Made by a program: the position numbers and the translations under genes
IMG/VR virus record: IMGVR_UViG_3300023119_000011
Coordinates: 40,859 to 104,858 of that record
Direction: 5' to 3' (one strand)
Origin: a virus
Length of the DNA stretch: 64,000 bases
Shown: positions 6,405 through 52,108 of the stretch, one piece after another
How the letters are laid out: each line of letters opens with the position of its first letter
Numbering within the stretch: the first letter of the stretch is position 1
Notes under the pieces: model-generated
Database searches by the model: none
What the model was told of the DNA's origin: nothing
What the model saw: only the letters and a program-made list of their open reading frames with translations

Positions 6405-6405
6405 T

Positions 6406-7068: not shown

Positions 7069-7079
7069 TCTCTTTGCGG

Positions 7080-7087
7080 TATAAATA
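7080..7087 (+). promoter_or_regulatory. T4-type late promoter (TATAAATA)
   Basis: An exact TATAAATA octamer lies 20 bases upstream of the gp25 start in the 39-base gap after the preceding stop. A purine-rich ribosome site (AAGAAAGGATAA) sits between it and the ATG. In T4 this octamer alone is the late promoter recognised through gp55. It would drive the gp25-gp6 wedge block. Confidence 0.75.
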
Positions 7088-7107
7088 GAAAGAAAGGATA
7101 ATTACAC

Positions 7108-32097: not shown

Positions 32098-32702
32098 TTA
32101 ATAATCTCATCAACATCAGGTTTTTCATGCGCTTCAAGAATTGGAGGAGCAGCTTTATATCCTAATTGCATACTAAATAATACGGGCTGTTTTTGTAAAA
32201 ATTTAAATTCTTCGTCCCATCTTTTATCTTGTAATTGGTCTGGAAAGCATAATAAGTAAGAAACATTAATATCTTTTTCTATGCATAAACCAGTAAGTAG
32301 TTTACAAAACATTCCAATTTCTATAGCTGTTTCCATTTTTTGTTGAGGTCCAGCAAAATTATTTGGATCGCATGTTTTATATAATTCCGCGTTTTTTCTC
32401 ATAGCCTTTGCAATAGATGCGGGTGGGTATACTAATCTTGGAGTAAACATTAACACATATGGGGCTTTTGCATTTGTATTATTAAATGAATTTGTATGTG
32501 TAGTCATATCATAAAAAGTTTCTTTAAGCTGTTTTTGTTTTGGACCTAAAACATAAACACTATATGGCATTAGCCTTTGTTTTGAAGCAACCAACTTATA
32601 TGCTGTTTCAAGTAAAATTTGCACATCAGTTTCAGATGGATATATATCTTGTTGATATATTCTTATCTGTTGTCTTTTTGAATATACTTTTTCTATTGTC
32701 AT
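32085..32702 (-). CDS. Nitroreductase-like flavoprotein, cassette gene 4
   Basis: This 205-residue protein has an N-terminus (SKRQQIRIYQQDIYPSETD) that follows the R-S-x-R-x-(F/Y) start of the nitroreductase family, with QLLETAYKLVASKQRLMPY and APYVLMFTPR after it. METAIEIGMFCKLLTGLCIE is the core helix and VLFSMQLGYKAA the typical C-terminal strand. These enzymes use FMN and NAD(P)H and act on many substrates, including nitro compounds, flavins and peptide azolines. The N-terminal motif is imperfect (Ser-Lys-Arg-Gln-Gln), so activity is uncertain. It overlaps the upstream PP-loop gene by four bases, suggesting linked function. Confidence 0.68.
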   Translation of the reverse strand: MTIEKVYSKRQQIRIYQQDIYPSETDVQILLETAYKLVASKQRLMPYSVYVLGPKQKQLKETFYDMTTHTNSFNNTNAKAPYVLMFTPRLVYPPASIAKAMRKNAELYKTCDPNNFAGPQQKMETAIEIGMFCKLLTGLCIEKDINVSYLLCFPDQLQDKRWDEEFKFLQKQPVLFSMQLGYKAAPPILEAHEKPDVDEIIKWVV

Positions 32703-33433
32703 TTAAACGCCCATTCTTTTTCTTTACACCAAAAACATTTTCCACATGGTTTTGAAAAATAATTTGTTTCTTCTTCTGAACCTACACACGAACTTGTTAA
32801 AGGATATAATGTATCCATAAGTTCATGTTCTTTATAAACATTCGCTACAAACTTCTTATCGATATTTATATAAGGTTGATATATTGTTTTAAACCATGGC
32901 ATTTGATTTCTAGTATCTCTACGCCTTTCAGCTAATTCATAAAAATTATTTTTTCTTTGTTCTTCTATTGGAGGATTACAAGTCATTCCTGTAATCATTA
33001 AGGCATTATTCCATTTTTTTCTAAGTTCGTTTTCAAAATGCCTTTTCATTAATATTTTTGTGAGTCCAGATATAGAACTAGCTCTTTCAACTTTTTTTCC
33101 ATCAATAATAACTTTTTCTTCTTCCCATTTTTCTTTAGCAAGATTTCTCCATTCTTTATCATTAATGTCAAATTCAAAAACTTCATGCTCTAATATTTTT
33201 TGCTTTGGAAATTTTTCTTTCATAAATTGAATAATATCTTTAGCACATAAGTAATCAAATGGGGCCGTTTTGTCCCAACCGGTATACGGAATAATTTCAA
33301 TTTCCGGAAAATTATTACAGATTAAATAAAACAATGATGCCGAATCTAAACCTCCCGATAAAGCAAGTAATACTTGACTTGGAATTTTTTTATCAAATAA
33401 GTCTATTTCTTGGTTTCCATAAGATAATTTCAT
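32699..33433 (-). CDS. QueC-like PP-loop ATPase, cassette gene 3
   Basis: This 244-residue protein has a PP-loop, LLALSGGLDSASL, with SGGLDS at residues 26-31 near the N-terminus. The C-terminus has four cysteines (C216, C230, C233, C236 in SSCVGS and PCGKCFWCKEKEWAF) in the spacing of the QueC zinc site, which is Cys-x13-Cys-x2-Cys-x2-Cys here. QueC itself makes preQ0 from CDG. The central part, about 100-190, is unlike typical QueC and contains ERASSISGLTKI and TGMTCNPP. It may instead be an adenylating amidotransferase or a related nitrile- or amide-forming enzyme. It is coupled to the radical SAM gene upstream and the nitroreductase-like gene downstream. Confidence 0.78.
   Translation of the reverse strand: MKLSYGNQEIDLFDKKIPSQVLLALSGGLDSASLFYLICNNFPEIEIIPYTGWDKTAPFDYLCAKDIIQFMKEKFPKQKILEHEVFEFDINDKEWRNLAKEKWEEEKVIIDGKKVERASSISGLTKILMKRHFENELRKKWNNALMITGMTCNPPIEEQRKNNFYELAERRRDTRNQMPWFKTIYQPYINIDKKFVANVYKEHELMDTLYPLTSSCVGSEEETNYFSKPCGKCFWCKEKEWAFK
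32863..32870 (-). promoter_or_regulatory. Possible internal minus-strand late promoter (TATAAATA)
   Basis: The complement reads TATAAATA within the PP-loop gene, 161 bases upstream of the nitroreductase-like start. It could boost the downstream part of the cassette, but it is inside coding sequence that is very AT-rich, so chance occurrence is realistic. Confidence 0.25.
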
Positions 33434-34641
33434 GCTAGCTCCGGATATATTTCAAATAAGTTTGTTTTATATAGTTCGTCAGTTTTACGAATGTATTGAA
33501 TAGCTTTATTATATTCATCTTCGTTTCTATCTAATAATAAACTATTATAAACTATTTCGTTATTAATGTACATAGGCATCAATTTATTTTTTATTTTATC
33601 AGGTAAATTTTTTGGATGAAGTTCTTTTGGATCATCTACTACATATAATCTTTGGTCCAAATTGTTTTCATTACACCATTTTTCTAATTCTTTAAATCTT
33701 AAAATACTTAAAAGTGATACAGTTGAAAATACTTGCATATGTACATTTTCATATTCTTTTAACAAATTATAATTGTACATAATATCTTTCCAAAAAGATC
33801 TCCTTCTAATATAATCGTTATATTTTCCAAACCCATCTAAAGAAATATTGATTTGTAGAAACTCAAAATGTTTTATATAATCTAAAATGCTTTTATTTCC
33901 TGATCCTAATATTGTAAGATTAGAATTCATTTCTAATATTATATCTTCTCCACCCCAATCTGATTCTATTACTTTATCTAAATATTCAAATTGTTTTTTA
34001 AGAAGAAATGGCTCTCCTCCTTGTAATACAATTATTCTTGTGTATGGAATAATCTTTTCTATATTATCCAAAAATCTATTTTGATTTTCTCCTCCTTTAA
34101 AAGGTTGCGGTTTTTCAAATGATACTAATTCATAATAATTATTTTCTCTTGAAGTTTTTTCTCGTACAGATGAATTAAATGGATGACACATGTAACAATC
34201 TAAATTACAAGTAGTTCCAAATTGTCTAAATTGGAGTATTAAACCATTTTGTCGTAAAGATGGTTTACCATTTCTATAAAAATCATTGGTGATTTTAATA
34301 ACTTCATCAATATCATTTATTTTGTTAGATAATTGTATTCTTTCAGAGTTGCCGTGGGTTTTTTCTTGTTCAATACATCTTTGACATTGATGCTCTAATA
34401 TTTTTTTATCTTTATCATCACCCAAACCAAGCGCAGCTCTCCGACAACTTTGATATACATTTCCAAAATACCAATCAAGGGGATCCGTGTTTGATACTGT
34501 TTCTTTATTTGATCCTCCAACACAGCAAACGGTATATTCTCCAGTTGTGTTTGTGTAAATATGATCAAATAATCTTGGACACCACCATGTTTGTTTTCTT
34601 AGATAATCTAAACTGCGTTCATTTTTAAGATCATTATTCAT
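33430..34641 (-). CDS. Radical SAM protein with N-terminal twitch-like Cys cluster, cassette gene 2
   Basis: In this 403-residue protein the N-terminal ~100 residues hold five Cys in WWCPRLF, YTVCCVGG and EHQCQRCIEQE, an auxiliary-cluster (twitch/SPASM-like) pattern placed before the core rather than after it. The core has CNLDCYMC (C145, C149, C152), the SAM-binding VLQGGEPFLLK and a later INISLDGFGKYNDYIRR. It is clearly paralogous to the gene just upstream, with the same domain order and the same C-terminal (LFEIYPEL) ending. Substrate unknown. The start overlaps the upstream stop by four bases, so a heterodimer or sequential action is plausible. Confidence 0.85.
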   Translation of the reverse strand: MNNDLKNERSLDYLRKQTWWCPRLFDHIYTNTTGEYTVCCVGGSNKETVSNTDPLDWYFGNVYQSCRRAALGLGDDKDKKILEHQCQRCIEQEKTHGNSERIQLSNKINDIDEVIKITNDFYRNGKPSLRQNGLILQFRQFGTTCNLDCYMCHPFNSSVREKTSRENNYYELVSFEKPQPFKGGENQNRFLDNIEKIIPYTRIIVLQGGEPFLLKKQFEYLDKVIESDWGGEDIILEMNSNLTILGSGNKSILDYIKHFEFLQINISLDGFGKYNDYIRRRSFWKDIMYNYNLLKEYENVHMQVFSTVSLLSILRFKELEKWCNENNLDQRLYVVDDPKELHPKNLPDKIKNKLMPMYINNEIVYNSLLLDRNEDEYNKAIQYIRKTDELYKTNLFEIYPELA

Positions 34642-36032
34642 TCATAATATTCTTTCAATTCTGGAAATACATCGAATAAATGCATTTCCCATTTGGTTCC
34701 AATATATGCTTTATCTTGTTTTAGCAAATAATTAAATGTATCTTGAATACTTATATCTGGTTCTGGGTCTTTAGATAGTGCTGCTTGAATATCTGGCCAA
34801 TCTTTATATTTTGGTAATAAATTTTCTTTTATTTTATCTGGTAAATTATTAACACGTAAATGTTTTGGTCTTTCAATCATTGCCCAGTTTATTTGATGAA
34901 TCTTATCATTTCCCTTACAATAATCAATAACTTCATAAAAACGAAGTACACTTAAAAAAGAAACTAAACCGTTAAAATCAACATCAATATTAGGATACTT
35001 ATTACACATATCGATATTATTTTCTAACTCATTCCAATTAGTTCTTCTTCTCATATATTCTATAGATTTTCCGATTCCATCAACTGAACCTACCATAGCA
35101 ATATTTTTAAAATGAGGGACATAATTAAAAAAATTATGTTTACCAGCAACCATTGTAGTAAAATTAGTTTGATATTTTATTCTAATATCTTTAGAATCTC
35201 CAGTCTCAACTAAAGCATCTAATAACTCATATTGTTTTTTCATAATTAATGGTTCACCACCAATAATTTTTATGCTTCTTATATAAGGTGCTAATTCTAC
35301 AACCTGTTCAACTATTCCCTTTGTTCTATCTTTACTTACATTTTCGTATATAGCTTTTTTTCTATCGAGAGATCCCCAAATTTTTTCATCCCATACACCC
35401 TTTTTAGCCATATCCATGCGCATTGATGAATTAGCATGAATACACATATGGCAATCTAAATTACATTCTGATCCAAAAACTTTTAGTTGAATTTCAAATA
35501 CTCTATCTTCAAAATCAAATATTCCACTTGCTTTAAACATATCTGCAGATTTTTCTATTCCATCCCAATGTTCCCAGTCATTAGTATGCATTTTCATACA
35601 GTTTGTTCTACGTGATCTTCCATATCTTTTTTCATCATCAACACACCTTTTACATATTTTATTTACTGCTTCAAAATTAGAGTTTGGATCAAGCATTTCT
35701 TCACGAATACTATTCATGTATTCGCTTTCTTCCATCCATTCTCTTAATGAAACATCTTCAACTTTTACACCAGAATCCGCACCAAAGCAACATGCTTTAT
35801 AGTTGCCATTAATTTCTGAATATACTTGAGTAAAGGGAATAGAACAAAACCATATTTTTTTGTTCTTAGTCAGATTTAATATAGAATTTGGATCTTTTTC
35901 TTTATTTTTACCAGTTGGGGAAAGTTTGGCAAACCAAGCTGAAGTATCATATTCTCCGGGTTTTGTTTTATCGCCTGGACCACCACGCAATAAATTATTC
36001 TTCAAAACTTCTTTTTTCACATATATCTCCAT
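34638..36032 (-). CDS. Radical SAM protein with N-terminal twitch-like Cys cluster, cassette gene 1
   Basis: In this 464-residue protein the N-terminus has WFCSIPFTQVYSEING, YKACCFGADSG and ICKRCVDDEKRYG, a cysteine cluster ahead of the core. The core has CNLDCHMC (C190, C194, C197), IIGGEPLIMKKQYEL and VGSVDGIGKSIEYMRRR. It is paralogous to cassette gene 2, with a C-terminus of HLFDVFPELKEYYE. The ATG at 36032 leaves almost no leader below the late promoter. A GTG at 36020 has GGAG six bases before it and may be the true start (460 residues). It is the first gene of the minus-strand unit. Confidence 0.85.
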   Translation of the reverse strand: MEIYVKKEVLKNNLLRGGPGDKTKPGEYDTSAWFAKLSPTGKNKEKDPNSILNLTKNKKIWFCSIPFTQVYSEINGNYKACCFGADSGVKVEDVSLREWMEESEYMNSIREEMLDPNSNFEAVNKICKRCVDDEKRYGRSRRTNCMKMHTNDWEHWDGIEKSADMFKASGIFDFEDRVFEIQLKVFGSECNLDCHMCIHANSSMRMDMAKKGVWDEKIWGSLDRKKAIYENVSKDRTKGIVEQVVELAPYIRSIKIIGGEPLIMKKQYELLDALVETGDSKDIRIKYQTNFTTMVAGKHNFFNYVPHFKNIAMVGSVDGIGKSIEYMRRRTNWNELENNIDMCNKYPNIDVDFNGLVSFLSVLRFYEVIDYCKGNDKIHQINWAMIERPKHLRVNNLPDKIKENLLPKYKDWPDIQAALSKDPEPDISIQDTFNYLLKQDKAYIGTKWEMHLFDVFPELKEYYE

Positions 36033-36135: not shown

Positions 36136-36510
36136 ATGGCCCAATACGAAGAATTTACGATCGACCAAGGCACAGATGTGGCCATTGAAATTCATTTAGT
36201 TGATGAACAAGGTAATGCTAAAGATCTTACCAACCACACAGTTAAAGCCCAATTAAGAAAAAATTATTCATCAGCAACCGCAACTGATTTTAATTCTATT
36301 ATTGCAACTCCACCTACTGATGGTATTGCAACCCTTTCATTAACAAATACAGAAACACAAGCTTTAGATAAAGGTAGATACGTTTATGACGTTGAACTTT
36401 CTTTCTTAGATAGTGATAATCAACCAGTAATTGAAAGAATCCTTGAAGGTAGAGTTCAAGTTACTCCTGGTGTAACAACGCTTGATCATAGTGGCGGAGG
36501 AGTTAACTAA
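36136..36510 (+). CDS. Small BppU-N-like beta-sandwich fibre-attachment protein
   Basis: This 124-residue protein begins with the FTIDQGTDVAIEIHLVDEQG pattern followed by KDLTNHTVKAQLRKNYSS. It continues with DGIATLSLTNTETQALDKGRY and VYDVELS, which match the N-terminal domain of phage baseplate proteins of the BppU type found in many tailed phages. It may form the base to which the following giant fibre attaches, since the two genes overlap by one base (TAATG). It ends in a Gly-rich tail and has no membrane segment. Confidence 0.65.
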   Translation: MAQYEEFTIDQGTDVAIEIHLVDEQGNAKDLTNHTVKAQLRKNYSSATATDFNSIIATPPTDGIATLSLTNTETQALDKGRYVYDVELSFLDSDNQPVIERILEGRVQVTPGVTTLDHSGGGVN

Positions 36511-39500
36511 TGGCAACTTTTGTAAAAAAGGTATTAGTTGGAACACCAGTAAGAAGAGTTACAGCTGGTTCATTTGATATTAGTAACATCGGTGGTGTTA
36601 ATATTTCAGGCGATGCTGGAACTGGTTATAACGTTGGTGAAGGTGTACATAATGATATTTTGGTTTATGACTCATCAGCATCTGAATATCGTAATCTTAA
36701 TACGTTAAGACAATTAAAAATAGATCATTTTACAATTGATAGTAATAAAATTAGTGTTGATTTTAATGATCCAACTATTTTAGATGAAATGTACATCTCT
36801 GCTCCAGATGGTGTATTTATTGACGGAAGATTAGAAGTTGATCGTATTAATCAAAGACAACTTGCTGTTTTTGATGATAGTTCACTTACAACTAAATTTT
36901 ATGTAGATCAAGAAATTGATAAGGTAAAAGAAGTTACCTTTACAATGGATGATGGATTTACTGACTCTGTTCAAATATATGATGGTGAAACTATCACTAT
37001 GGCCGGTGGACGAGGACTATCTACTCGTGGTGTAAAAGTTGGCAATGTTCTTACTATTACAACTGACCTTGATTCTACAGGCGCAGATTCTGGAACATTT
37101 GGTTCTTCTATTCGTATTCCAATTCTTACAACCAATTCTCGTGGTCAAATTACAACAATTTCAGATGTAGCGGTTGCTTCACTTGATTCGATTAATTATG
37201 ATTCTTCAAATGGGTCTGGTGTACTTAGTATTAATACATCAGATGGTGGACTATATCAAACAACCATTAATTTAAATCCATTTACAACAACTGATCTTGA
37301 AGAAGGTACAGAAATACCTCCTACTGCATCTTTCACATATTCAGTTACTGCATCTGGCAATTTTTTCTATAGTGTAACTGGCACTGATAGAAATGGATCT
37401 ATAAGTGGCGGTGATCCAGCTCTTACAGTTAGAGTTGGTGATACACTAACATTTAATAACTCCGTTTGGGAAGATCATCCATTATTAATTAAAACAGTTG
37501 CTGGAACAGGAATTAATGATTTAGCTTCTGGAGTAACAGGTCAAGGTACGGCAACCGTAACTTGGACGCCTGATACAGCTGGAACATATTACTATCAATG
37601 CCGTGTCCATGAAGATATGGTTGGAGTCATTACAGTATTAGCCCGACAAGAAGCAGCGCAATACTATTCAAGAGCGAGATTTGATTCTGCATTAGGCGAT
37701 GGCACTTCTATTGCAACAATTCGTGGTTATGTAAGTGGATCTGGTGACCTTCAATACGATTCTGCAACAGGTGTATTCTCAGTTGACGTTCAACAAGTTT
37801 ATGGTAGAGATGATTTTGACTCTGACCTAGACGATGCTATGAATAGCAATTCGAATTTGCATTGGTATCCAGATAGCAACTTCTTTGATCTTACACCAAT
37901 TAATGATTCAACAGCTGGCACATATGGTTCACCAACACAAATGCCAGTATTTACTGTTGATAGCTATGGTCGTATTGATAGCATCGGTGAAGTTTTAGTT
38001 GCTTCAGTAGATAGTACACGTTGGATCTCAAGTACAAATACTTATAGAATTAGTACTGGTGACGGTCAAGTATTTAATACTATTATCGATAGCTTTAATA
38101 GTAACGTTTTAATACAAGACGATATATCATTAAACTTTGGTGCAGGTAATGATCTTGTAATTAAACATAATACAACTGCTAACTTAGATGAAATTACTGC
38201 TACAATTCCATTAGTAATTAGTTCAAGTGACTCAATTTCTATTGATGCCACAAGCGGCAATATTCATATTGGCGGAGATCTTTTACCATCAGTTGATTCT
38301 ACATATGATCTTGGTTCACCAACTAAAAAATGGAAAGATCTATATTTATCTGGTCAAACAATTAATCTTGGAACAGTAAAATTAGAAGATAGCCAGGGAT
38401 CACTTTCTATTAAAACTGCAAGTGGTTTAGCTGGAGATTTAAGTCTTAAATATTTAAGAGCTGACTCTGCATATATTAGTCAGTTAAATGTTGATAGCAT
38501 TAGTATTTCTCAGTTGAATCTATCTAATGCTGATATGGATAGCCTATACGTTGATAATTTTAATGCTGTTATCGGCGATATCGATAATGCTACATTAGGT
38601 CAAGTTACTATCGACAGCGCTTATATTACACAGCTAAACGTAAGTCAACTAGATGTTGATAGCATTAATATTGTTGATGGTAAAGCTTATTTTGATAGTG
38701 CTTATATTACACAGTTAAATGTAGCAACAGCAGACATTGATACTTTTACATCAGCTAATGCTATTTTAGATAGTGCTTATATTGGTCAGCTTAATGTAAG
38801 TCAAGCAGATGCGGATAGTTTACATGTTGATCAATTAAATGTTGGCACAGCAGATATTGATAATGCTATATTGGGTCAAGTTACTATTGATTCAGCACAT
38901 GCTACGCAATTAGACGTTTCGAATGCTCATATTGATGCTGCTACCGTTGATTCTGCAAGAATTGAAAACTTAAGCGTAGACATTTTAAATGCCGATTCAG
39001 TATCGGCAGACTTTATAAGATTTGATCGAGTTCTTTGGGATGATAATACTAAACCTACAACTGATGAAGGTACAGTATACTATAATTCTGGACCTGATGC
39101 TCTTGTTTATAAACCTGCCACTGCTTCTCCAATTAAAATTGGTCAAGACGCAGTAACACGAGTTTATAACAACACTGGCGCTATGATTCCTCGTGGTTCT
39201 CCAGTTTATGTTACTGGTGCGACTAACGACTTCCCAACAATTGCGAAAGCACAAGCAAACGATATCACTACTATTGATGCTACTATTGGTGTTCTAAAAG
39301 ACAGTATTAATACAAATTCTTTTGGTCTCGTACTAAATAGAGGTTTACTTGGAAGATTAGACACTTCGTCATATAGTGTTGGTGATTTACTATTTGTATC
39401 TGCAGATAGCGCTGGTAAGTTTACTACAACTGCTCCAACATATCCAAACTTTGCATATGAAGTTGGTAGAGTTCTAGTTGTAGACTCAGCGGGTGGAGCT

Positions 39501-42113
39501 AATGTTGGTGGTTGTGTACAAATTGCACAACAAAAAGAATTTTTCGAACAATTAAGAGTTACTGGTTCTGGCCGGATAGATCAAAACTTTACAATTGGTG
39601 GTAACCTTACTGTTATTGGTTCACAAATCCAAACTACAACTCAAAGTTTGGCGGTTGACGATACAGTTATTGAAGTAGGTGCGGGTGATACTATTGGCGC
39701 AGCTGGAACAAGTTTCGGTGGTACTGGACAGAATGATGGTGTATTCATTGGTCATTATACCGGTGATAGTGTTATTAATTATCATGTAAGAATTGATTCT
39801 GCGGGTGGATCAGGAGATACAATTGAATGGTCTTACGATAGCCAATATGGAGTATTACAAACATTCGATTCTGCAGGTGGTACTGGACCTACTAAATTTG
39901 TATTATCAGCAGGTTCTTTAGTAGCTGCATTAAGTGATGGTATAAGTATTAAGTTTACTGCTGCTACGGGTCATGATTTAAACGATAGTTGGGCTGGAGA
40001 AGCTTCACCAATTAATGTTCAAATTGGTCTTGTTGGTAATTATAATCCAGATGATGATTCACATGCATATTCAGGTTTAATTAGAGATCCAGCAGATAAT
40101 AGATGGAAATTCTTCCAACAATATTTACCAGATCCACAAGCAAATGTTAATTTTGCCGATCCTTCATTAGAATTTGCTCCAGTTCAAGTTGGAACATTAT
40201 ATGCAAGTACAGTAGATGCTAATTTAACTGGTAATGTTACTGGTACAGTATCTGATATTTCTAATCATACAACTACACAACTTGCTGAAGGTACAAATCT
40301 ATACTTTACTGATGCAAGAGTAAAAGCTGCAATTGCTGATTCAGCTGTAGCTGTAAGATTTGATGCTGATTCTGGCCAAATTAAACAATTTATTTCAGAC
40401 TCTGCCTATATTGGTCAACTCAATGTAAGTCAATTAGATGTCGATAGCTTATACGCAGATCAAATCAATATTAGTCAAGCCGATGTTGATTCACTTTATG
40501 TCGATCAATTAAACGTAAGTCAAGCCGATGTTGATTCACTTTATGTCGATCAATTAAATGTAAGTCAATTAGACGTTGATAGCATTAATATTGTTGATGG
40601 TAAAGCTTATTTTGATAGTGCTTATATTGGCCAATTAAACGTAACAATTGCTGATATAGACACATTAACTTCGGCCGATGCTATATTAGATAGTGCTTAT
40701 ATTGGCCAACTTAATGTTGCAACTGGAGATATCGACACCCTTACATCAGCTAATGCTTCACTTGATTCTGCTTATGTTGGACAATTAAATGTCATAACTG
40801 GTGATATTGATAATGCTACATTAGGCCAAGTAACGATTGATTCTGCTTATATCACTCAAATAAACGTTTCACAAGGTGATATTGATAGTTTACATGCTTC
40901 TCAATTAAATGTTGATAGTGCTTATATTACACAATTAAATGTAAGTCAAGCGCATATCGATAGTTTATATGCAGATAATATTAACTTAGCATTAGTTGAT
41001 ATTGATACCTTTACTGCTGATTCAGCTATTATTACCAACATATCAGGTACTAGTGCAAACTTTACTACAATTGAAAGATCAGGTGCAACAGATTATAATG
41101 GAGTCTGGGGTTCAGCTTCATTAGTACCAATAATTACACTTAATTCATCCGGTTTTGTTGATAGTATTGGAACAACTTCTGTTGCTGGTGTAACAGCATT
41201 TGCATGGGATTCAGCAACTTCAACAGCTACAATTAGTACAGCAGATGGTGGATCGTTTACGTCGGTTATTAATGGTTTTGGTAGTATTACAAGTGATCTT
41301 ATACCATCACTTGATTCAACATATGATCTAGGTTCTGTAAGTAATAAATGGAAAGACTTATATCTTTCTGGATCTACTATTACCCTTGGCAATGTAAAAT
41401 TACAAGATAGCGCCGGTGGCTTAAAAGTTATGCACACATCAGGTGCTATGACACAAGTTAAAGCTGGTCATCTTAAAGCAGATTCAGCCGCAGTTGATCT
41501 ATTAGGTGTATTAAACGATTCAAATGGTCATTATCGTATATCACATAATACGGTAATGCGTTCATATGAAAATAGAGATTCAAATAACCTAATATCTGGA
41601 ATTACTCAAGATTCAAATAATCAAGGGCTTGTAAATATTTACGTAAGAACTGGATTTAAAACTGGAGCACATAGATATTGGAAGCAAGGATCTTCTAAAG
41701 GCTACTTTATAGCCTATGATTCAGACGATTTGTACACAGCGAAAGAAATCCAAGCACCACATTTAGATTTATTACCAGGCGTTACATATCGATTCCACCA
41801 TAATGACTCATCTATGTCAACGCACGATATTAGATTTTATTGGGATGATGCAAAATCTGGATTAGTTTCAGATAGTGCAGCAGATATAATTTATGCTGGA
41901 GTTGCTGGTAATATAGATGTTGGTAATTCATATGCACAAATTAAAGTAAAACAAGATGGTCCTAGATCATTAGCATATCAATGTATTAATCATCCATATA
42001 TGGGTAATAGTTTAAATACAAATACAACAGGTGGATCAAGAATTCTTGGAACATCAACAGGTATTAAAGTTGATGGTGATATTGATGGAATTATTGATGG
42101 TGGAACATATTAG
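36510..42113 (+). CDS. Giant tail fibre with Asp-Ser-Ala-Tyr/QLNVS repeats and two cupredoxin-like domains
   Basis: This protein has 1867 residues. The N-terminal third includes a cupredoxin-like domain (about 270-378) with H323 and YYYQCRVHEDM (C364, H367, M370). Residues ~650-830 and ~1290-1500 are long arrays of short units (AYITQLNVSQLDVDSLYVDQ), typical of a fibre shaft. Residues 840-1200 hold a module common to phage fibres (GAMIPRGSPVYVTGATNDF, GLLGRLDTSSYSVGD). The C-terminus has a second copper-site pattern with H1772 in MSTHDIRF and AYQCINHPYMG (C1825, H1828, M1831). Two STYDLGSxxxKWKDLYLSG segments (around 597 and 1604) mark repeated shaft boundaries. It likely contacts the host. 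Confidence 0.82.
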   Translation: MATFVKKVLVGTPVRRVTAGSFDISNIGGVNISGDAGTGYNVGEGVHNDILVYDSSASEYRNLNTLRQLKIDHFTIDSNKISVDFNDPTILDEMYISAPDGVFIDGRLEVDRINQRQLAVFDDSSLTTKFYVDQEIDKVKEVTFTMDDGFTDSVQIYDGETITMAGGRGLSTRGVKVGNVLTITTDLDSTGADSGTFGSSIRIPILTTNSRGQITTISDVAVASLDSINYDSSNGSGVLSINTSDGGLYQTTINLNPFTTTDLEEGTEIPPTASFTYSVTASGNFFYSVTGTDRNGSISGGDPALTVRVGDTLTFNNSVWEDHPLLIKTVAGTGINDLASGVTGQGTATVTWTPDTAGTYYYQCRVHEDMVGVITVLARQEAAQYYSRARFDSALGDGTSIATIRGYVSGSGDLQYDSATGVFSVDVQQVYGRDDFDSDLDDAMNSNSNLHWYPDSNFFDLTPINDSTAGTYGSPTQMPVFTVDSYGRIDSIGEVLVASVDSTRWISSTNTYRISTGDGQVFNTIIDSFNSNVLIQDDISLNFGAGNDLVIKHNTTANLDEITATIPLVISSSDSISIDATSGNIHIGGDLLPSVDSTYDLGSPTKKWKDLYLSGQTINLGTVKLEDSQGSLSIKTASGLAGDLSLKYLRADSAYISQLNVDSISISQLNLSNADMDSLYVDNFNAVIGDIDNATLGQVTIDSAYITQLNVSQLDVDSINIVDGKAYFDSAYITQLNVATADIDTFTSANAILDSAYIGQLNVSQADADSLHVDQLNVGTADIDNAILGQVTIDSAHATQLDVSNAHIDAATVDSARIENLSVDILNADSVSADFIRFDRVLWDDNTKPTTDEGTVYYNSGPDALVYKPATASPIKIGQDAVTRVYNNTGAMIPRGSPVYVTGATNDFPTIAKAQANDITTIDATIGVLKDSINTNSFGLVLNRGLLGRLDTSSYSVGDLLFVSADSAGKFTTTAPTYPNFAYEVGRVLVVDSAGGANVGGCVQIAQQKEFFEQLRVTGSGRIDQNFTIGGNLTVIGSQIQTTTQSLAVDDTVIEVGAGDTIGAAGTSFGGTGQNDGVFIGHYTGDSVINYHVRIDSAGGSGDTIEWSYDSQYGVLQTFDSAGGTGPTKFVLSAGSLVAALSDGISIKFTAATGHDLNDSWAGEASPINVQIGLVGNYNPDDDSHAYSGLIRDPADNRWKFFQQYLPDPQANVNFADPSLEFAPVQVGTLYASTVDANLTGNVTGTVSDISNHTTTQLAEGTNLYFTDARVKAAIADSAVAVRFDADSGQIKQFISDSAYIGQLNVSQLDVDSLYADQINISQADVDSLYVDQLNVSQADVDSLYVDQLNVSQLDVDSINIVDGKAYFDSAYIGQLNVTIADIDTLTSADAILDSAYIGQLNVATGDIDTLTSANASLDSAYVGQLNVITGDIDNATLGQVTIDSAYITQINVSQGDIDSLHASQLNVDSAYITQLNVSQAHIDSLYADNINLALVDIDTFTADSAIITNISGTSANFTTIERSGATDYNGVWGSASLVPIITLNSSGFVDSIGTTSVAGVTAFAWDSATSTATISTADGGSFTSVINGFGSITSDLIPSLDSTYDLGSVSNKWKDLYLSGSTITLGNVKLQDSAGGLKVMHTSGAMTQVKAGHLKADSAAVDLLGVLNDSNGHYRISHNTVMRSYENRDSNNLISGITQDSNNQGLVNIYVRTGFKTGAHRYWKQGSSKGYFIAYDSDDLYTAKEIQAPHLDLLPGVTYRFHHNDSSMSTHDIRFYWDDAKSGLVSDSAADIIYAGVAGNIDVGNSYAQIKVKQDGPRSLAYQCINHPYMGNSLNTNTTGGSRILGTSTGIKVDGDIDGIIDGGTY
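40473..40562 (+). repeat. 45-bp tandem duplication inside the giant fibre gene
   Basis: Two adjacent 45-base copies (40473-40517 and 40518-40562) differ at a single position (AAACGTA against AAATGTA). Each encodes the 15-residue SQADVDSLYVDQLNV unit. A wider, more diverged array of the same unit surrounds them. Confidence 0.88.
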
Positions 42114-42174: not shown

Positions 42175-43413
42175 ATGGCTACTATTAGACTTAAAAAATC
42201 TTCCGTTACTGGGAAGGAACCAACCGCATCAGATCTTGAGTATGGTGAATTAGCATTAAACTATGCTGATGGAGTTTTGTATTATAAAAATACAAGTAAT
42301 GTTGTTGCTAATATTTCTGGCGGTGGTGCCACTGCAGATAGTGATGCTCCAGCTGGAGCAAATTTAAGATCAGGTGATCTTTGGTGGGATGCTATTAATG
42401 GCCGTTTAAAAATTTATTATGATGATGGCGATCCAGCTGCAGCAAGTCCACTTACTGTAACTCTTACAGTTAATTCTACATATACTACAAATTTAAATTA
42501 TTCATTTGATACAGGTTGGACTGATCGCAATGGTCTGAAGTCATACACAAATGGCGCAACAGAATCTTTAGATCCTGCAATTAATATTCAGCAAGGTGAT
42601 ACTATTACCATTAATAATGGTGAATCAGTAAATCATCCACTTTTCTTTGTAACTCAATTAGATCCAATTTCAAACAATTATAATTCAAGTTATAATGTTG
42701 AACTTCCTGCAAGTAATTATGGTGGAGGTTCAGGTTCTGTTTCTTATCAATTCAATTCTCCAGGAACATATTACTATATCTGTGGTGTTCATGCTGATAT
42801 GTTTGGAGTTATTACTGTTGTTTCAAGTGCTACAGCTTCAAAACAATGGGTTGATGCATCTCCTCAAGGTAGAGGTTATACTGGTTCAGCCGGTGCAATT
42901 AACTATTCAGAAACTGCTCCATCTTCTCCAGCGGGTGGTCAAATTTGGTATGATACTAAAACTGGTAAATCATATATGTACTATATCGTTTCAGGTTATG
43001 GTCATTGGGTTTTATTTAGTGATCCAACAATTGCTGATGGTAATGAAGGGTTTACAGGATCACAAGGTTATACAGGATCACGTGGTACAATTTCTCCAAG
43101 AAGTTTAATATTCCTAGCACCGCAACCAAACGATGAACAAACATTATTATTTACAAATAGCGCTTTAGTAGTATCTGAAATAAGAGGAGTGATCAGGGCA
43201 GGAACAGACGTTGATATAGACGTAAAATATGCAACTTCGCGAAATCAAACAGGCACAACTATTGCGAGCGGTACAATAGCAAATAATAGTACTGGTGCTA
43301 CTCTTACAGTTTCTAATGCTAATATTCCAGCAAATAGTTATGTTTGGTGTGAAATAACAACAGTAACCGGAATTGTAGATGAATTCCATCTTAACGTATT
43401 ATTTAGTGAGTAA
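42175..43413 (+). CDS. Tail fibre protein with cupredoxin-like and short collagen-like segments
   Basis: This 412-residue protein has an N-terminus, TIRLKKSSVTGKEPTASDLE then YGELALNYADGVLYYKN, which is the common fibre-head start of marine phages. Residues ~95-220 form a cupredoxin-like domain with NHPLFF (H154) and YYYICGVHADMFG (C203, H206, M209). A short Gly-x-y stretch (GFTGSQGYTGSRG) follows at about 300, then a beta-sandwich C-terminal domain ending FHLNVLFSE. The SAPSSPAGGQIWYDTKTGKSY-like segment is a frequent fibre linker. It follows its own late promoter. Confidence 0.78.
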   Translation: MATIRLKKSSVTGKEPTASDLEYGELALNYADGVLYYKNTSNVVANISGGGATADSDAPAGANLRSGDLWWDAINGRLKIYYDDGDPAAASPLTVTLTVNSTYTTNLNYSFDTGWTDRNGLKSYTNGATESLDPAINIQQGDTITINNGESVNHPLFFVTQLDPISNNYNSSYNVELPASNYGGGSGSVSYQFNSPGTYYYICGVHADMFGVITVVSSATASKQWVDASPQGRGYTGSAGAINYSETAPSSPAGGQIWYDTKTGKSYMYYIVSGYGHWVLFSDPTIADGNEGFTGSQGYTGSRGTISPRSLIFLAPQPNDEQTLLFTNSALVVSEIRGVIRAGTDVDIDVKYATSRNQTGTTIASGTIANNSTGATLTVSNANIPANSYVWCEITTVTGIVDEFHLNVLFSE

Positions 43414-44755: not shown

Positions 44756-47700
44756 ATGGCAATTGCTAATTTAACAAGAGAAGTAACATTAGGTGATTCA
44801 GATTTTCTGGGTGTGCCAGCTATGCATCATATTTCTGATGCTGGTTATTGGTATTATTATCATCCAGCAGATTATGATTCAAATAATGTTCTTGCTGGCA
44901 ATTCAATTGTAAGTTATGAATGGGATGCAATATTGCCAGTTGTTGCTGCTGATAGACTTTCAGGAACAACTAATAATGTTGAATTAGATGGAACAATTGC
45001 ATTTATTGATGATTCTACGAATGGCGTATACGATGCTAATACACAAGTTCGTTATCACGGTGGATGTATACAAGACATTGGTCCAGGCTTAAACGATATT
45101 ACAAACCAAACTGAAAATGATGCTTATATGTTTGCTCATATTGGCACCTTTGGTGATGATGGAACTACTGCGGCTGGTACATTACAAGATGATGCTTTTT
45201 ATTGGGATAGACTTTATCAAGCAAGCGCGGGAGGTGATTGGGCATTCTATCAATATCACAAACACCTTCCTTCAAACTATTCAAAATATGATGATGGACG
45301 AATCGTATTCGGTTCAGATGGTTATATTCGACCATCAGACAAACAATTTGGATACTTAATTAATATCCTTGCAAAACAAGGTTCAAGCTCATATTCAGTT
45401 CCTCTTGCTCGTATTCATACTCCTTCAGTTGGTGGTGCTCATAACTCTCACAATGATGTAACTTTACCGAATACTGCTGGAATTAACTATTTGCCTGGTG
45501 GTATTTTAAAAGGTGGTTCCAATAGATTCCATGCTTTTTATATGAGCAAAACTACCAATGGCTGGAATTTATTTTCACGTACTTATACATCATCATCTGG
45601 TTCATTTACGCCTGAAGTAAACTATGGCGATCAAACTGAAATAGCTGATGCAGTATTTAATCCTTATCCAGGGGGTAATCAGGATGCTGAAGGTACACAA
45701 AGTTCATACGCGTTTAGAGCTTCAGCGGGACATGTGTTCGGCTCAAAAATATATGTTCCAGTTGTAACTGAAGCTGCAGCAAGACCTAATTTAACAGCAG
45801 AAGTAACAGATATTGTTGGTGGTGGTGTTATTTATGCGGTAACAGTAGGCAGAGATAGAGAAGGTTCTCATGCAGAAAGAAATCAACCGACGATTTATAT
45901 GAAAGTTGGGGATACTCTTACGTTTGAAAACTCTCAATATCTTGCTCACCCAATGTATATACGTAATACCACTAATATTTCACCTACTCCTACTTCTCAT
46001 AACGTAGCAGGTGCGTCTGGTGGAGGTTCAAGTGGATCCACACTTACATTTACTCCTCAAACTGCAGAAACAGTATATTATATTTGTTCACTTCATGCTA
46101 ATATGTATGGTGAAATTGTTATTACCGAAAGAGATGGTACATTCGATCAACAAATTTGGTCATTTACTGATGCTAATACTATTTCACCTGGTACACTTAA
46201 TAAAATTGATTTACCATTCCAATTTCAAGGACAACCATATAAACCAGATTGTTATATTTCAAGTGTAGGTACAAATCTTTATATTGCGGCATCAAGTGGA
46301 TTACAAGGTGGGGCACAATTATTTAGTTGTAATTTATCAACCCTTGATTCTGAAGGTCAATTAGCGTTTGAAGGTAATATTGTTACTAATGATTCAGACG
46401 ATTATTTGCGTATGCATGGATTTAAATATAATGCTTCTACTACAAAATTTTTCACTTTATTATCTGGTGTTAATGGCGCTGTAGGTAATTATGATGGAAA
46501 AGGTTTATATAGTTTTGACTTAGCAGGTGGTGCATTTGATGGTTATTCTCATATGTCATATGATACAACAAGTGGGACATATACTACAAGGCAAGCATTG
46601 CAGGCTGGGCATTTAATATATAATCATGCAACAGCACAAATTGAATATAGTACAGGCACTGAACCAGAAGGTATTGCTACTGGCACTTCAATTCTACAAT
46701 TTGCAACCGCGTCTCCTTCATTTTACAATAAAAAAGAAATTAATACTGGTAAATCAGAAGAATATTATTTCCAAGGGATTTATCTTGAAGATGGCCGTAA
46801 AGCTCTTGTTGGTAGACTTGAAGCACATCCTGAAACTACAGGTGCAGAAAATACTGGTGATTTATTACTTACTATTGTTGACAATGAAAATAATTCAGTA
46901 AGTTATACTTGGGGTGGAACTGGTGATAATTTCTTTACTGGTATTATTGAAGATAAAGAAAATGGAAAATTAGTTTTATCTGGTTATTCAAAAGGAGAAC
47001 TTGCTCCTAAAGGTGATCAATGGGTACATGGTTGGGGTAGAAATATTCATCAATCAAATGACTCAGCAAGTATGAAATTATTTGATATTGCAAGAGAAGA
47101 TTCAGCTAATGGTGTTTTCTATGCGGTAGGACACGATTATATTAATAATGCTCCACTCGTTGAAGCCTGGAATAAAAATTATGATCATTATAAAGATTTG
47201 AAAATGGATTTTGGTCCAGATTCTTCTCAATTAGATAATATTGATATATTAAGTAATGAAAAAGGTATTGTTTCTGGATATACACTTAATGCAGCAAATA
47301 AAAGAACAGGATTAATTAGTAAAATTGATCTTAAAACAAATACAGTGGATTGGGTAAAAGGTTTATATCAAGGTACAAATGTTCATAAAATAACAGATCA
47401 TTGTACAGTTGATAGAAATGGAACAGAATATACTGTAGGGTTTATTGAAAATAATAGTTATACAGATGATTCTGATTTTACGTTTAATCATGGTTTATTA
47501 TTTTTAATGGATGGAAATGGTAACGTTACTGTTTCAAAATCCACTGAAGCATTGCCTGGTGCGCCTCATACACCTAATTTACATATCGAAAGAATTCAGC
47601 CAGGTAAAGTTGGCACTGGTGATTTTTTCTTCTGTGGTTCTGAAACCCGTGGAACAAGTAGAGCTCCAATGTGGGGTTATGGCAATGTGTTTACTTCTGA

Positions 47701-50059
47701 TTTGATTCATTTTAATACACGAAGATTAGACACAACTGGCGCTAGCATTTCTGGTAGTACTACTGCAAATTGGCAACAGAAAGAATCAGTATTTAATGAT
47801 ATTGGGGTATTGAAATACTATGATGATAGTAACAAGTATGATATTGTTGTCGTAGGTCAAACTGAAGATCTTACTTTGACTGACGGTGATTCGAATGGTA
47901 AAGGCGGATATGGTCTACCATTAATTGAAAAACACACCATTTATGTAGATTCTGCGCAATCTGGAATTACTACGCATAATACTACGTTACGTTGGGCAAA
48001 AACATATCAATCAAAGTATGGTAAATTAAATTCATTCCATTCTTTAGTTATTGAAGACTCTGATAAAAGAGATTGGTGGTGGAATGAAGAGAATTTCTTT
48101 CATAACGGACAAGTAAGATTTATTGTTGCTGCTAGCGGTCATGACTTAGATAGCAATGCTTCACATCCAGATTATACTAATGATATTCTAATGAGAAGAG
48201 ATACACTCTTTGCTATGATTAATGATAGTGATGGTAGCCTTATCTGGGGAAATACTCTTGGTCATATGGGTAATGACGATATTAATAAATCAATGGTGTG
48301 GGATGCTCATAATAGAAATTTTGTAACAGTTGGTTCATCTACATCTCACTCTGTCGGTGAAGATGGTATTCTATTTAGATTATGGAAAGATGGATTTGGG
48401 ACTGGTGTTTATCACACTGATCAATCAACATCAAATGCGTATTATTATGATTCATCATACATTTATCCAACAGATTTTATTTTTGCTGGAGAATATGATA
48501 GTAATACATTCCCAAATACTTCATTATCAACAGTACAAGTTTCGGTTGGATTATCGGCTTCACTATCAAATAATAGTGCTAATACTGTTCATACTGAATA
48601 TAATGGTTCATATGGTGCCAATGGCTTGTTTACTGGATTCTTAGGAATTGTTGATCAGAAAGATTTACAAGATTTTAAAAACACTGATCAATATATTCGT
48701 GAATCACAAGAAGGAAAAATTGTACATAGAGTTTCAGATGATTTCTTCAAAATCCATCAAGTGTCTACTGTTGGTGATGCTACTGCTGATGATGGAAATG
48801 TTTTTGCTTATGATGTGATTAAATCAAGAGATCTAGAATATTATTATTTAGGTGGTCAAGTTTCTGGTAATATTGCAAGAACCAATGATGGTTTATCGGG
48901 TGTTTATGACTATACATTATTTCAATGGGATATTGCATCTGAGCAATTTAGGTTCTGGCAAAATGGCACAGCGCAAGATGAAGAAATCTATGCGATTACA
49001 GAATTAACTGGTACTGCATTATTGGTAACTGATCCTCCTGCTGCTGGCCAAGGTAGAACAACAGGTCAAGTAGTATGGACTCCAACTACAGCAGGAACAT
49101 ATTATTATCAATGTGGTATTCACAACATTATGGGTGGACAGTTGATTGTAACAGATGTTCAAGCCGGGACAAATACTTATGATATTGATGTATCAAATAA
49201 TGGTGCAATTGCTTATAGAATGACTGGTTCAGATAGAAATGGTACAATTAACTCATCTACTGATAATCCAACTATTACTATCGATACAGGTGATACCGTA
49301 AGATTTAATGTTGATGCATCTGGTCATCCATTCTATATTCAGACTGCAGCTGGTACTGGTGGTTCTAAAAATGGTCATATCGCATTTTGCGGTAGAACAA
49401 CCGGACAATTAGGTACTGATATTGGTTCACCTGACTCTGATACCCCATTATTTGGTGGCTATGATTTATTCCTTGGTATTTTTGATCCAAATGCTTGGGT
49501 TGCTGAATATTATAACCAAGGATCTGGTTTTAATGATAAAGCAATGAATGTTCATGATTTACATCCAAAAATTCCTAACACATTGGCATTGTCATATACA
49601 TCATTTGGTTCTGTAAATGGTTCACCAACGTTTGGATCTGAAGATATTGGCGTAATTACATTTAATTACGATACTGATAGTTGGAGTCAAGGGTTTCAAA
49701 TTGGTTCAGAAACATCTGAAGAAATAGATCAAAACGGAAAACCAAGTACATTACTTCCAGACGGAAGATTAGCTATAGTTTGTAATACGGCTGGTACTTT
49801 TGCAGATGATACCATTACGTATGGTTCTAAAGATATGGGTCTTGCAATATTTAATTTTGATAGCGATGGTTTAGGAGGTTATTTAGGTTGGTCTAAATAT
49901 CAAATTGGATCAGGATCTGCTGATTTTTCATATAGTATTGATAATAATGGTTCTACATTTTTAATTACTGGATATTCAGAAGCTACTTGGGATAAATCGG
50001 TATCAGGAGTATTTGTTGAATTTGATCCAGAAAGAAATTTACTAGGGAAGAGTGCATAA
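44756..50059 (+). CDS. Giant propeller-like fibre/adhesin with normal and permuted cupredoxin-like domains
   Basis: This protein has 1767 residues. Most of it is repeated beta-sheet sequence of propeller type, each unit with a hairpin such as NGKLVLSGYSKGE, GIVSGYTLNA, DFFFCGSETRG or STFLITGYSEAT. Residues ~345-455 hold a cupredoxin-like domain with H398 (YLAHPMYI) and YYICSLHANMYG (C444, H447, M450). Residues ~1419-1538 hold a second one whose halves are reversed: YYYQCGIHNIMGG (C1453, H1456, M1459) comes first, then GDTVRFN and SGHPFYI (H1524). It probably lies on the virion surface as a host or glycan contact, but no enzyme motif is seen. Confidence 0.75.
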   Translation: MAIANLTREVTLGDSDFLGVPAMHHISDAGYWYYYHPADYDSNNVLAGNSIVSYEWDAILPVVAADRLSGTTNNVELDGTIAFIDDSTNGVYDANTQVRYHGGCIQDIGPGLNDITNQTENDAYMFAHIGTFGDDGTTAAGTLQDDAFYWDRLYQASAGGDWAFYQYHKHLPSNYSKYDDGRIVFGSDGYIRPSDKQFGYLINILAKQGSSSYSVPLARIHTPSVGGAHNSHNDVTLPNTAGINYLPGGILKGGSNRFHAFYMSKTTNGWNLFSRTYTSSSGSFTPEVNYGDQTEIADAVFNPYPGGNQDAEGTQSSYAFRASAGHVFGSKIYVPVVTEAAARPNLTAEVTDIVGGGVIYAVTVGRDREGSHAERNQPTIYMKVGDTLTFENSQYLAHPMYIRNTTNISPTPTSHNVAGASGGGSSGSTLTFTPQTAETVYYICSLHANMYGEIVITERDGTFDQQIWSFTDANTISPGTLNKIDLPFQFQGQPYKPDCYISSVGTNLYIAASSGLQGGAQLFSCNLSTLDSEGQLAFEGNIVTNDSDDYLRMHGFKYNASTTKFFTLLSGVNGAVGNYDGKGLYSFDLAGGAFDGYSHMSYDTTSGTYTTRQALQAGHLIYNHATAQIEYSTGTEPEGIATGTSILQFATASPSFYNKKEINTGKSEEYYFQGIYLEDGRKALVGRLEAHPETTGAENTGDLLLTIVDNENNSVSYTWGGTGDNFFTGIIEDKENGKLVLSGYSKGELAPKGDQWVHGWGRNIHQSNDSASMKLFDIAREDSANGVFYAVGHDYINNAPLVEAWNKNYDHYKDLKMDFGPDSSQLDNIDILSNEKGIVSGYTLNAANKRTGLISKIDLKTNTVDWVKGLYQGTNVHKITDHCTVDRNGTEYTVGFIENNSYTDDSDFTFNHGLLFLMDGNGNVTVSKSTEALPGAPHTPNLHIERIQPGKVGTGDFFFCGSETRGTSRAPMWGYGNVFTSDLIHFNTRRLDTTGASISGSTTANWQQKESVFNDIGVLKYYDDSNKYDIVVVGQTEDLTLTDGDSNGKGGYGLPLIEKHTIYVDSAQSGITTHNTTLRWAKTYQSKYGKLNSFHSLVIEDSDKRDWWWNEENFFHNGQVRFIVAASGHDLDSNASHPDYTNDILMRRDTLFAMINDSDGSLIWGNTLGHMGNDDINKSMVWDAHNRNFVTVGSSTSHSVGEDGILFRLWKDGFGTGVYHTDQSTSNAYYYDSSYIYPTDFIFAGEYDSNTFPNTSLSTVQVSVGLSASLSNNSANTVHTEYNGSYGANGLFTGFLGIVDQKDLQDFKNTDQYIRESQEGKIVHRVSDDFFKIHQVSTVGDATADDGNVFAYDVIKSRDLEYYYLGGQVSGNIARTNDGLSGVYDYTLFQWDIASEQFRFWQNGTAQDEEIYAITELTGTALLVTDPPAAGQGRTTGQVVWTPTTAGTYYYQCGIHNIMGGQLIVTDVQAGTNTYDIDVSNNGAIAYRMTGSDRNGTINSSTDNPTITIDTGDTVRFNVDASGHPFYIQTAAGTGGSKNGHIAFCGRTTGQLGTDIGSPDSDTPLFGGYDLFLGIFDPNAWVAEYYNQGSGFNDKAMNVHDLHPKIPNTLALSYTSFGSVNGSPTFGSEDIGVITFNYDTDSWSQGFQIGSETSEEIDQNGKPSTLLPDGRLAIVCNTAGTFADDTITYGSKDMGLAIFNFDSDGLGGYLGWSKYQIGSGSADFSYSIDNNGSTFLITGYSEATWDKSVSGVFVEFDPERNLLGKSA

Positions 50060-52108
50060 ATGGCTATACTTAATTTTCCAATAAATCCAAGTCATAATGA
50101 TACTTATTCTGCAAATGGAATAGATTATTCTTATGATAGCACTTCTACTTCTTGGACAGTTCAGCCAAATTTAGGTTATACTGGATCACAGGGTTTTACG
50201 GGATCTAAAGGAGCTGGATTTACAGGATCTAGAGGTTTAATAGGTTACTCTGGATCGCGGGGTTTTGACGGTTCACGAGGTTATACTGGTTCGGTTGGAT
50301 ATACAGGTTCCTCAAACGTACAAGGTATACGTTATGTTTATGATACAGGAACAACCGTTAATACTGCTTTAAGTGGCGAATTTAGATTTGATAATGCAAC
50401 CATTGGATCTGCAACACAGATTGGAATTAATGCTTTTGATGCAGACGGTAATGATCTTACAAGTTATTTTTCTACACTTGACAACTATGGATCCAGCTTA
50501 ATAAGAGGTACATTATTATTTAAACCTGCCGATTTAACATCTGGCGAATTTATGGCCTTTGAAGTTACTTCAACATTTACAAATAATTCTGGTGTTCTTG
50601 TTGCAAGTGTTAGTTCAGCTGGTGGTGGATTAACATTATCTGATGCTGATGAACTTATAATTACGTTTATTCCTGCTGTTCAAGGTGAAATTGGTTATAC
50701 GGGATCAAGAGGTGATCCAGGATTTACAGGATCAGTTGGTTTTGTTGGATCGCAAGGTGTTAAAGGTGACCCAGGTTTTGTTGGATCGCAAGGTGATTTT
50801 GGTTATACCGGTTCAAGAGGTAATTCAGGTGTTAACGGAACTGGCGGTGGATTCTTTGTAATTGAAGCTGAAAGAAGTTCAGGAGCAACTAATGGCGCCT
50901 ATTTTGCTTTTGGTAATGGCGCGAGCCCAACTCAAGGCGTAAGAGTTCCAATTGATTGTAACTTAGAATATTTAACAATTTCAACTGAAAGTCTTAACAC
51001 CTGTACTGTAACACTATACATTAATGGCACAGCATCTACTGCAACAGTATCATTAGCAGGTCAAGGGAGTAATACAGCACTAATTAATCCTGGGTTATCT
51101 ATTTCATCCGGTGATAGAATAGCATTTAACGTGACTTCGGGAAGTACTAATAGTACCACAGTTGTATCAGCATGGTTTGCTCATGATGGTGTAAAGGGTT
51201 ATACAGGATCAGTTGGTTTCGTTGGATCTCAAGGTGTTAAAGGTGATCCAGGATTTACAGGTTCACAGGGTTATACAGGTTCTCGAGGTGTTATTGGTTA
51301 TACAGGATCTCAAGGTGTTATTGGATACACTGGTTCGCAAGGTCCTATTGGGTACACTGGATCTCGCGGTTACACAGGATCAAGAGGATTTACAGGATCT
51401 AGAGGTGCCGATGGTACATCTATAGCAATTCAAGGTACAGTTGCAACAACAGGTAACCTACCATCATCTGGTAATACTGCCGGTGATGCTTATATTGTAC
51501 AAGCAGATGATCACCTTTATGTTTGGGATGGAGCGACTTGGACAGATGCTGGCCAGTTTGTTGGTTATACTGGATCTCAAGGTGTGATTGGTTATACTGG
51601 ATCAAGATCTACAGTAATTGGTTATACGGGATCAAGAGGTTACACTGGTTCTCGTGGTCCTATTGGTTACACTGGTTCGCAGGGTGTTATTGGTTATACA
51701 GGTTCTCAAGGTGTAATTGGATACACTGGATCTCGCGGTGTTACTGGTTACACAGGTTCACAGGGTTATACAGGTTCGCAAGGACCGATCGGATATACTG
51801 GTTCGCAAGGTCCTATTGGTTACACTGGTTCACAGGGTCCTATTGGGTACACTGGATCTCGCGGAGCTACTGGTTACACAGGATCTTTTGGTTTACAAGG
51901 TTACACAGGTTCTCAAGGAGCACTGGGTTATACTGGATCTCGCGGAGCACTGGGTTATACTGGATCTCGAGGAGCACTGGGTTATACTGGATCGCGTGGA
52001 GCAACTGGATTTACAGGATCTGGAGGTAGCACTGGATACACCGGATCACAAGGTGCATCCGGTGGTGGTACTGGTCTTGCAATTGCAATGGCAATGATAT
52101 TTGGGTGA
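50060..52108 (+). CDS. Collagen-like tail fibre
   Basis: This 682-residue protein has an N-terminus (MAILNFPINPSHNDTYSANG) resembling the C1q-type fibre start upstream. The rest alternates globular beta domains (about 88-210, 272-378 and 455-500) with Gly-x-y tracts dominated by GYTGSQG, GYTGSRG and GPIGYTGS. The longest tract covers roughly residues 500-670. The sequence keeps Gly at every third place, as in collagen triple helices, with Tyr-Thr and Ser-Gln/Arg in the other positions instead of Pro. It probably forms a long thin trimeric shaft. It ends with the hydrophobic tail LAIAMAMIFG. The repeats are prone to length change. Confidence 0.85.
   Translation: MAILNFPINPSHNDTYSANGIDYSYDSTSTSWTVQPNLGYTGSQGFTGSKGAGFTGSRGLIGYSGSRGFDGSRGYTGSVGYTGSSNVQGIRYVYDTGTTVNTALSGEFRFDNATIGSATQIGINAFDADGNDLTSYFSTLDNYGSSLIRGTLLFKPADLTSGEFMAFEVTSTFTNNSGVLVASVSSAGGGLTLSDADELIITFIPAVQGEIGYTGSRGDPGFTGSVGFVGSQGVKGDPGFVGSQGDFGYTGSRGNSGVNGTGGGFFVIEAERSSGATNGAYFAFGNGASPTQGVRVPIDCNLEYLTISTESLNTCTVTLYINGTASTATVSLAGQGSNTALINPGLSISSGDRIAFNVTSGSTNSTTVVSAWFAHDGVKGYTGSVGFVGSQGVKGDPGFTGSQGYTGSRGVIGYTGSQGVIGYTGSQGPIGYTGSRGYTGSRGFTGSRGADGTSIAIQGTVATTGNLPSSGNTAGDAYIVQADDHLYVWDGATWTDAGQFVGYTGSQGVIGYTGSRSTVIGYTGSRGYTGSRGPIGYTGSQGVIGYTGSQGVIGYTGSRGVTGYTGSQGYTGSQGPIGYTGSQGPIGYTGSQGPIGYTGSRGATGYTGSFGLQGYTGSQGALGYTGSRGALGYTGSRGALGYTGSRGATGFTGSGGSTGYTGSQGASGGGTGLAIAMAMIFG
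51190..52060 (+). repeat. Degenerate 18-bp coding repeats (collagen-like tracts)
   Basis: The DNA repeats GGTTATACTGGATCTCAAGG-like units in multiples of nine and eighteen bases, with synonymous changes between copies, in two blocks (about 51190-51415 and 51560-52060). These are coding repeats for Gly-x-y triplets and are not a CRISPR array, since spacers are absent. Confidence 0.85.

Follow-up and report, generated by a model that had tools for sequence, protein, structure and literature searches.

Genomic context of the cupredoxin domains

The window, a stretch of 64,000 nucleotides analysed as a whole, covers bases 40859-104858 of the 104,858-base IMG/VR virus record IMGVR_UViG_3300023119_000011. 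The source virus is a marine T4-like myovirus, and the window carries genes for the baseplate wedge and hub, the tail sheath stabiliser gp15 and the terminase. Its tail fibre cluster codes for several large proteins. The gene under study encodes a 1767-residue virion or tail-region protein and has tail fibre and baseplate genes as its neighbours. This protein contains two cupredoxin domains, one in normal order, with H398, C444, H447 and M450 as ligands, and one with its two halves in reversed order (Table 1).

Two other proteins of the window, of 412 and 1867 residues, carry a normal-order cupredoxin as well. The 412-residue protein also matched the Pfam Copper-bind model with E=2.8e-5, which is above the cut-off. 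In the 1867-residue protein we noted a weak second cupredoxin match (16 bits) at residues about 1737-1832, with a C-x2-H-x2-M motif. Positions 50060-52108 of the window encode a 682-residue protein that resembles tail fibres and contains a long collagen-like GYTGSQG repeat. A block of minus-strand genes (about 23878-36032) lies within the structural cluster and includes a carbamoyltransferase and a radical SAM protein; it is perhaps a surface-sugar or modification cassette.

Table 1. Position of the cupredoxin domains, their parts and the surrounding host strands in the window
Feature	Position	Strand	Basis and remarks
1867-residue protein with normal-order cupredoxin at residues about 275-376	36510..42113	+	HMM 120 bits
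412-residue protein with normal-order cupredoxin at residues about 100-216	42175..43413	+	HMM 106 bits
Host gene, 1767-residue virion/tail-region protein, propeller-like	44756..50059	+	ORF; one normal-order and one permuted cupredoxin
Normal-order cupredoxin of the 1767-residue protein, residues 353-458	45812..46129	+	HMM positions 12-108, 107 bits
Host strand preceding the insert, residues 1405-1418, TAQDEEIYAITELT	48968..49009	+	Strand in both models
Predicted circularly permuted cupredoxin, residues 1419-1540	49010..49375	+	From the first base of residue 1419 to the last base of residue 1540; HMM, AlphaFold2, PDB profile match, Foldseek
C-half (beta6-beta8 and Cys-x2-His-x2-Met loop), comes first	49022..49153	+	HMM positions 65-109, 43 bits, E=5e-12
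Ligand loop C1453-x2-H1456-x2-M1459	49112..49132	+	Invariant across relatives; amicyanin spacing
N-half (beta1-beta4 and first His), comes second	49181..49375	+	HMM positions 2-66, 53 bits, E=3e-15
His1524, remaining ligand	49325..49327	+	HP invariant across relatives
Host strand following the insert, residues 1541-1555, HIAFCGRTTGQLGTD	49376..49420	+	Strand in both models; conserved in 10 relatives

The two halves of the second cupredoxin are swapped

A profile HMM of 109 positions was trained on normal-order copies only and searched against 1523 ORFs. In the 1767-residue protein, residues 1424-1467 matched model positions 65-109, and residues 1477-1541, which follow them, matched positions 2-66 (both residue ranges are in stop-to-stop ORF numbering, one above the protein numbering). 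The two half-matches are complementary and add up to a single cupredoxin domain with its order reversed. An earlier note on this DNA had placed the Cys-His-Met half before the His half, opposite to the other copies. The HMM bears this out, with significant matches to both halves, and the three other clear cupredoxins of the window are all in normal order. Since its halves are reversed, we classed the domain as a permuted variant and not as a canonical cupredoxin.

When the profile of the insert, flanks included, was compared with the PDB, it matched auracyanin A in two stretches in swapped order (E=3.7e-4) and amicyanin over its last 27 residues. The Pfam cupredoxin models gave no match to the permuted copy. 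A second-round HMM (std1) reported a full normal-order copy at residues 1352-1467 (positions 2-109). We rejected this candidate because the model was contaminated. The full-length match came from the training sequence of a relative whose propeller strands had wrongly been fitted to the N-half, and once this sequence was removed the match was reduced to the C-half.

The predicted structure is a single domain with permuted strand order

Structure prediction had been proposed in the earlier note as a check. From ten sequences, AlphaFold2 returned one confident domain (pLDDT 81.5, pTM 0.73, core blocks 84-96), and the order of its strands is the one expected for a permuted barrel. We searched this model with Foldseek against predicted viral structures (BFVD). 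The sole significant match was an S-CAM1 'putative proximal tail fiber protein' (E=1.2e-7, 96 columns), which itself carries a permuted cupredoxin. Several normal-order phage cupredoxins aligned over just 50-58 columns, at 0.8-2.9 Å. A long match to a permuted domain together with half-length matches to normal-order domains is the pattern that circular permutation gives.

Against the PDB, the Foldseek search of the isolated domain gave no significant sequential match, and hence no full match to a solved cupredoxin. This is expected, since Foldseek aligns sequentially and the domain is permuted. The HMM, the reversed match to auracyanin A, the AlphaFold2 model and the Foldseek column lengths all support circular permutation. 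We consider it very probable that the insert is a circularly permuted cupredoxin placed in a loop of the tail-region protein.

The insertion site in the host protein and its conservation

In the host strand preceding the insert, DEEIYA and EL are invariant in 10 relatives. The best PDB matches of host residues 568-1767 in Foldseek were mostly beta-propeller folds, with low TM-scores and a model pLDDT of 60, and on this model the host protein looks like a beta-propeller. The propeller-like host agrees with the earlier note, which had also proposed that removal of the insert rejoins the flanks into a hairpin resembling others of the same protein. This second part is marginal. Scored with a model built from the other hairpins, the flanks joined without the insert gave 4.5 bits, a value that about 1% of shuffles attained, while the strand after the insert alone scored 5.5 bits, so the joined flanks score no better. 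A control with random joins included real hairpins and was therefore not informative.

The earlier note had also called for a comparison with relatives lacking the insert. Our flank searches found no propeller relative without it in the collections searched, and the insert was present in all 21 spanning loci. Therefore, the particular insertion event in the propeller was not seen directly. Three observations support the placement of the domain in a loop: the strands that flank it in both models, the propeller matches, and the filled and empty site in a sister protease described below.

All of the IMG/VR contigs that span the site (21/21, representing 11 distinct sequences and found by searches with the insert and both flanks) keep the arrangement and all four ligands, H1524, C1453, H1456 and M1459. 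Identity of the insert among them falls to 45%. In four pairs with unsaturated dS, dN/dS of the insert was 0.11-0.22 and synonymous changes predominated, which indicates that the insert is under purifying selection. Since order and ligands are kept throughout and synonymous changes dominate, the arrangement is neither a product of chance nor an assembly join.

Proposed mechanism, function and alternative explanations

The best overall explanation, and in our view a probable one, is a permuted barrel with a copper site, inserted in a loop and exposed as an accessory domain. The sequence shows that a short linker (about VQAG) connects the original N and C termini and that the new termini lie in the loop that runs from beta4 to the strand before beta6. 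Sequence and model suggest that the two halves make up one barrel and that H1524, C1453, H1456 and M1459 would come together in it as a type 1 copper site with a short amicyanin-type loop.

Close termini are a main geometric requirement for inserted domains (PMC13114784). Here, the old ends and the new ends are both probably close together, since the linker is short and no long linkers lead to the host strands. With the new ends adjacent, the domain could replace the turn of a propeller hairpin and leave the hairpin undisturbed. The most likely reason why the permutation was selected, or tolerated, is that a permuted domain can be inserted into loops. Cupredoxins have their metal site at one end, here presumably the end away from the host protein, so the domain would be suspended from the tail protein with its metal site facing outward.

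We regard type 1 copper binding by the permuted domain as likely from its ligands. Some normal-order phage copies have lost theirs, which means that ligand retention is not automatic. Since the permuted copies keep the ligands that some normal-order phage copies elsewhere lost, metal binding is probably used. The least certain step is the role of the domain. It may be an exposed accessory domain in host-surface adsorption, possibly loaded with copper after release, and not an electron carrier; this adsorption role is conceivable but rather doubtful. A part in host entry has been suggested for the iron of phage tail fibres (PMC11705849), and copper on the tail would be a new variant of this idea. 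More broadly, conserved copper ligands on phage tail-region proteins widen the question of trace metals in virions, so far put for iron (PMC11705849). For a domain on a tail protein, host-surface contact and metal-dependent stiffening would be the likeliest roles.

The competing explanation that survives best is a purely structural spacer or decoration, with a metal site that is incidental or stays empty. The cytoplasm, in which tail proteins are put together, holds little free copper, and Ig-like decoration domains exist without any metal. However, the H, C, H and M ligands are invariant in all permuted copies of the propeller-insert family, and this, set against their loss from some normal-order copies elsewhere, makes a metal-free spacer unlikely, although it deserves to be weighed seriously.

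The single barrel itself could also be questioned. The halves might be remnants of two normal domains left after tandem duplication and truncation, as the frequent cupredoxin arrays and nested copies of these phages could suggest, and permutation by duplication and subsequent deletion has been described in the literature (PMC2395249). Remnants of this kind are quite improbable here: the halves complement each other (65-109 and 2-66), none of the four ligands is missing from any of the 11 distinct sequences, dN/dS is 0.11-0.22, and AlphaFold2 folds the pair into one confident domain. We find it very improbable that the halves are completed by neighbouring chains through a domain swap in an oligomeric tail protein. 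Many tail fibre proteins form trimers and the linker between the halves is short, as a swap might favour, but a short linker is also what an intramolecular permutant needs, and the single-chain model is confident. An assembly artefact or chimeric contig, conceivable for a window that comes from a metagenome, has a negligible probability and is already refuted by the 21 independent contigs with their 11 distinct sequences and by analogous permuted domains in the genomes of several cultured S-CAM1 isolates, which settles the misassembly check raised in the earlier note.

Relation to known cupredoxins

The predicted permuted barrel with its loop insertion can be placed next to several known systems. 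Both of its halves match the cupredoxins of the plastocyanin/azurin family (PF00127, Copper-bind), with amicyanin and auracyanin A as the nearest solved members, and the four type 1 ligands are present. The C-x2-H-x2-M spacing is the same as in amicyanin. Compared with the solved cupredoxins, the permuted copy has its halves reversed and is inserted inside another domain.

Close sequence relatives with the same ligand pattern are found in the normal-order cupredoxins of marine phage tail proteins and proteases (P-SSM2, P-HM2, S-H9-1, ACG-2014; PHROGs 9158 and 677), but these have the standard strand order, unlike the permuted domain. Among the closest cellular relatives that we found are cupredoxins from MAGs of marine Bacteroidetes (L139-L142), mostly short and apparently secreted. 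By sequence they belong to the same subfamily (34-62% in the best segment) but they are free-standing and in normal order, and all matches in bacterial genomes were in normal order. Natural circular permutation that keeps the fold and a conserved motif site is known from the imelysin-like protein PIBO (PMC3143127), which differs in its unrelated all-helical fold and in having no insertion. We found no naturally permuted type 1 copper domain in the literature searched, nor as a significant fold match in the PDB, and our literature searches on cupredoxins in phage tails returned nothing.

Permuted cupredoxins recur in related phages

The S-CAM1 protein matched by Foldseek is a protease (AOV57849) that resembles subtilases, from a Synechococcus phage in culture, and it also carries a permuted cupredoxin in a loop. 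It resembles the copy in the 1767-residue protein in its swapped halves, its loop insertion and its kept ligands. It differs in the subtilase host, in the use of two loops and in the cut point, which lies between beta6 and beta7 and not after beta4. The C-half of this copy is short and scores just 12-15 bits, yet it has the C-x2-H-x2-M motif. In four related contigs (L129, L130, L131 and L133), a second permuted cupredoxin lies in another loop of the protease. It is cleanly absent from other, closely related protease genes (L121, L132 and L134-L136), where a few residues, AGGS or similar, stand in its place. Proteases with and without it align throughout the remainder of the protein, which gives a direct comparison of filled and empty sites. 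Both permuted protease copies share about the same cut point.

A third context was found in a subtilase/Ig-type phage protein (L054-L058, L061-L063, L066-L069 and L076; for example the L054 ORF at 3393-9626). Here a C-half is followed by beta1, a complete normal cupredoxin and beta2-beta4. The order of these segments indicates a permuted cupredoxin whose beta1-beta2 loop accommodates a normal one. P-HM2 and similar relatives have no such block beside the conserved downstream segment, in a region where the alignment is rough.

Overall we counted 46 permuted pairs in 42 distinct ORFs against 248 normal-order domains, a tally that depends on how the loci were fetched. Among 143 full domains in the 80 loci retrieved with a normal-order query none was permuted, and the ranking of that search favours normal order. 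Swapped-half loop insertion that recurs in related viruses appears to be undescribed so far for the cupredoxin family. Close relatives whose loops are filled or empty, a protein with both normal and permuted copies, and two cut points together make a natural experiment on why domains permute.

In a tree of 101 domains, the permuted copies fell into three separate clades (support 84, 100 and 100), and the copies of the two S-CAM1-type protease loops grouped together. A single origin of the permuted copies was not rejected (AU p=0.17). The differing cut points argue for at least two permutation events or a re-cut. We tentatively suggest, as a possibility somewhat short of even, that permuted, loop-insertable cupredoxins are a recurrent mobile module of marine phages, which arose through two or more permutations, moved between the loops of virion proteins and tethers type 1 copper sites to the surface of the virus.

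These phages commonly have cupredoxins in arrays or nested in one another. In nine loci (L223, L229, L235, L236, L244, L246, L247, L078 and L084) a cupredoxin is apparently split at the beta3-beta4 loop by one or two whole cupredoxins, so that profile positions 1-46 are followed by full copies and then by positions 47-108; these domains are nested and not permuted. In L060 and L083 (ORF residues about 300-490), the second and third of the tandem cupredoxins are without the Cys, His and Met ligands, while the first keeps them.
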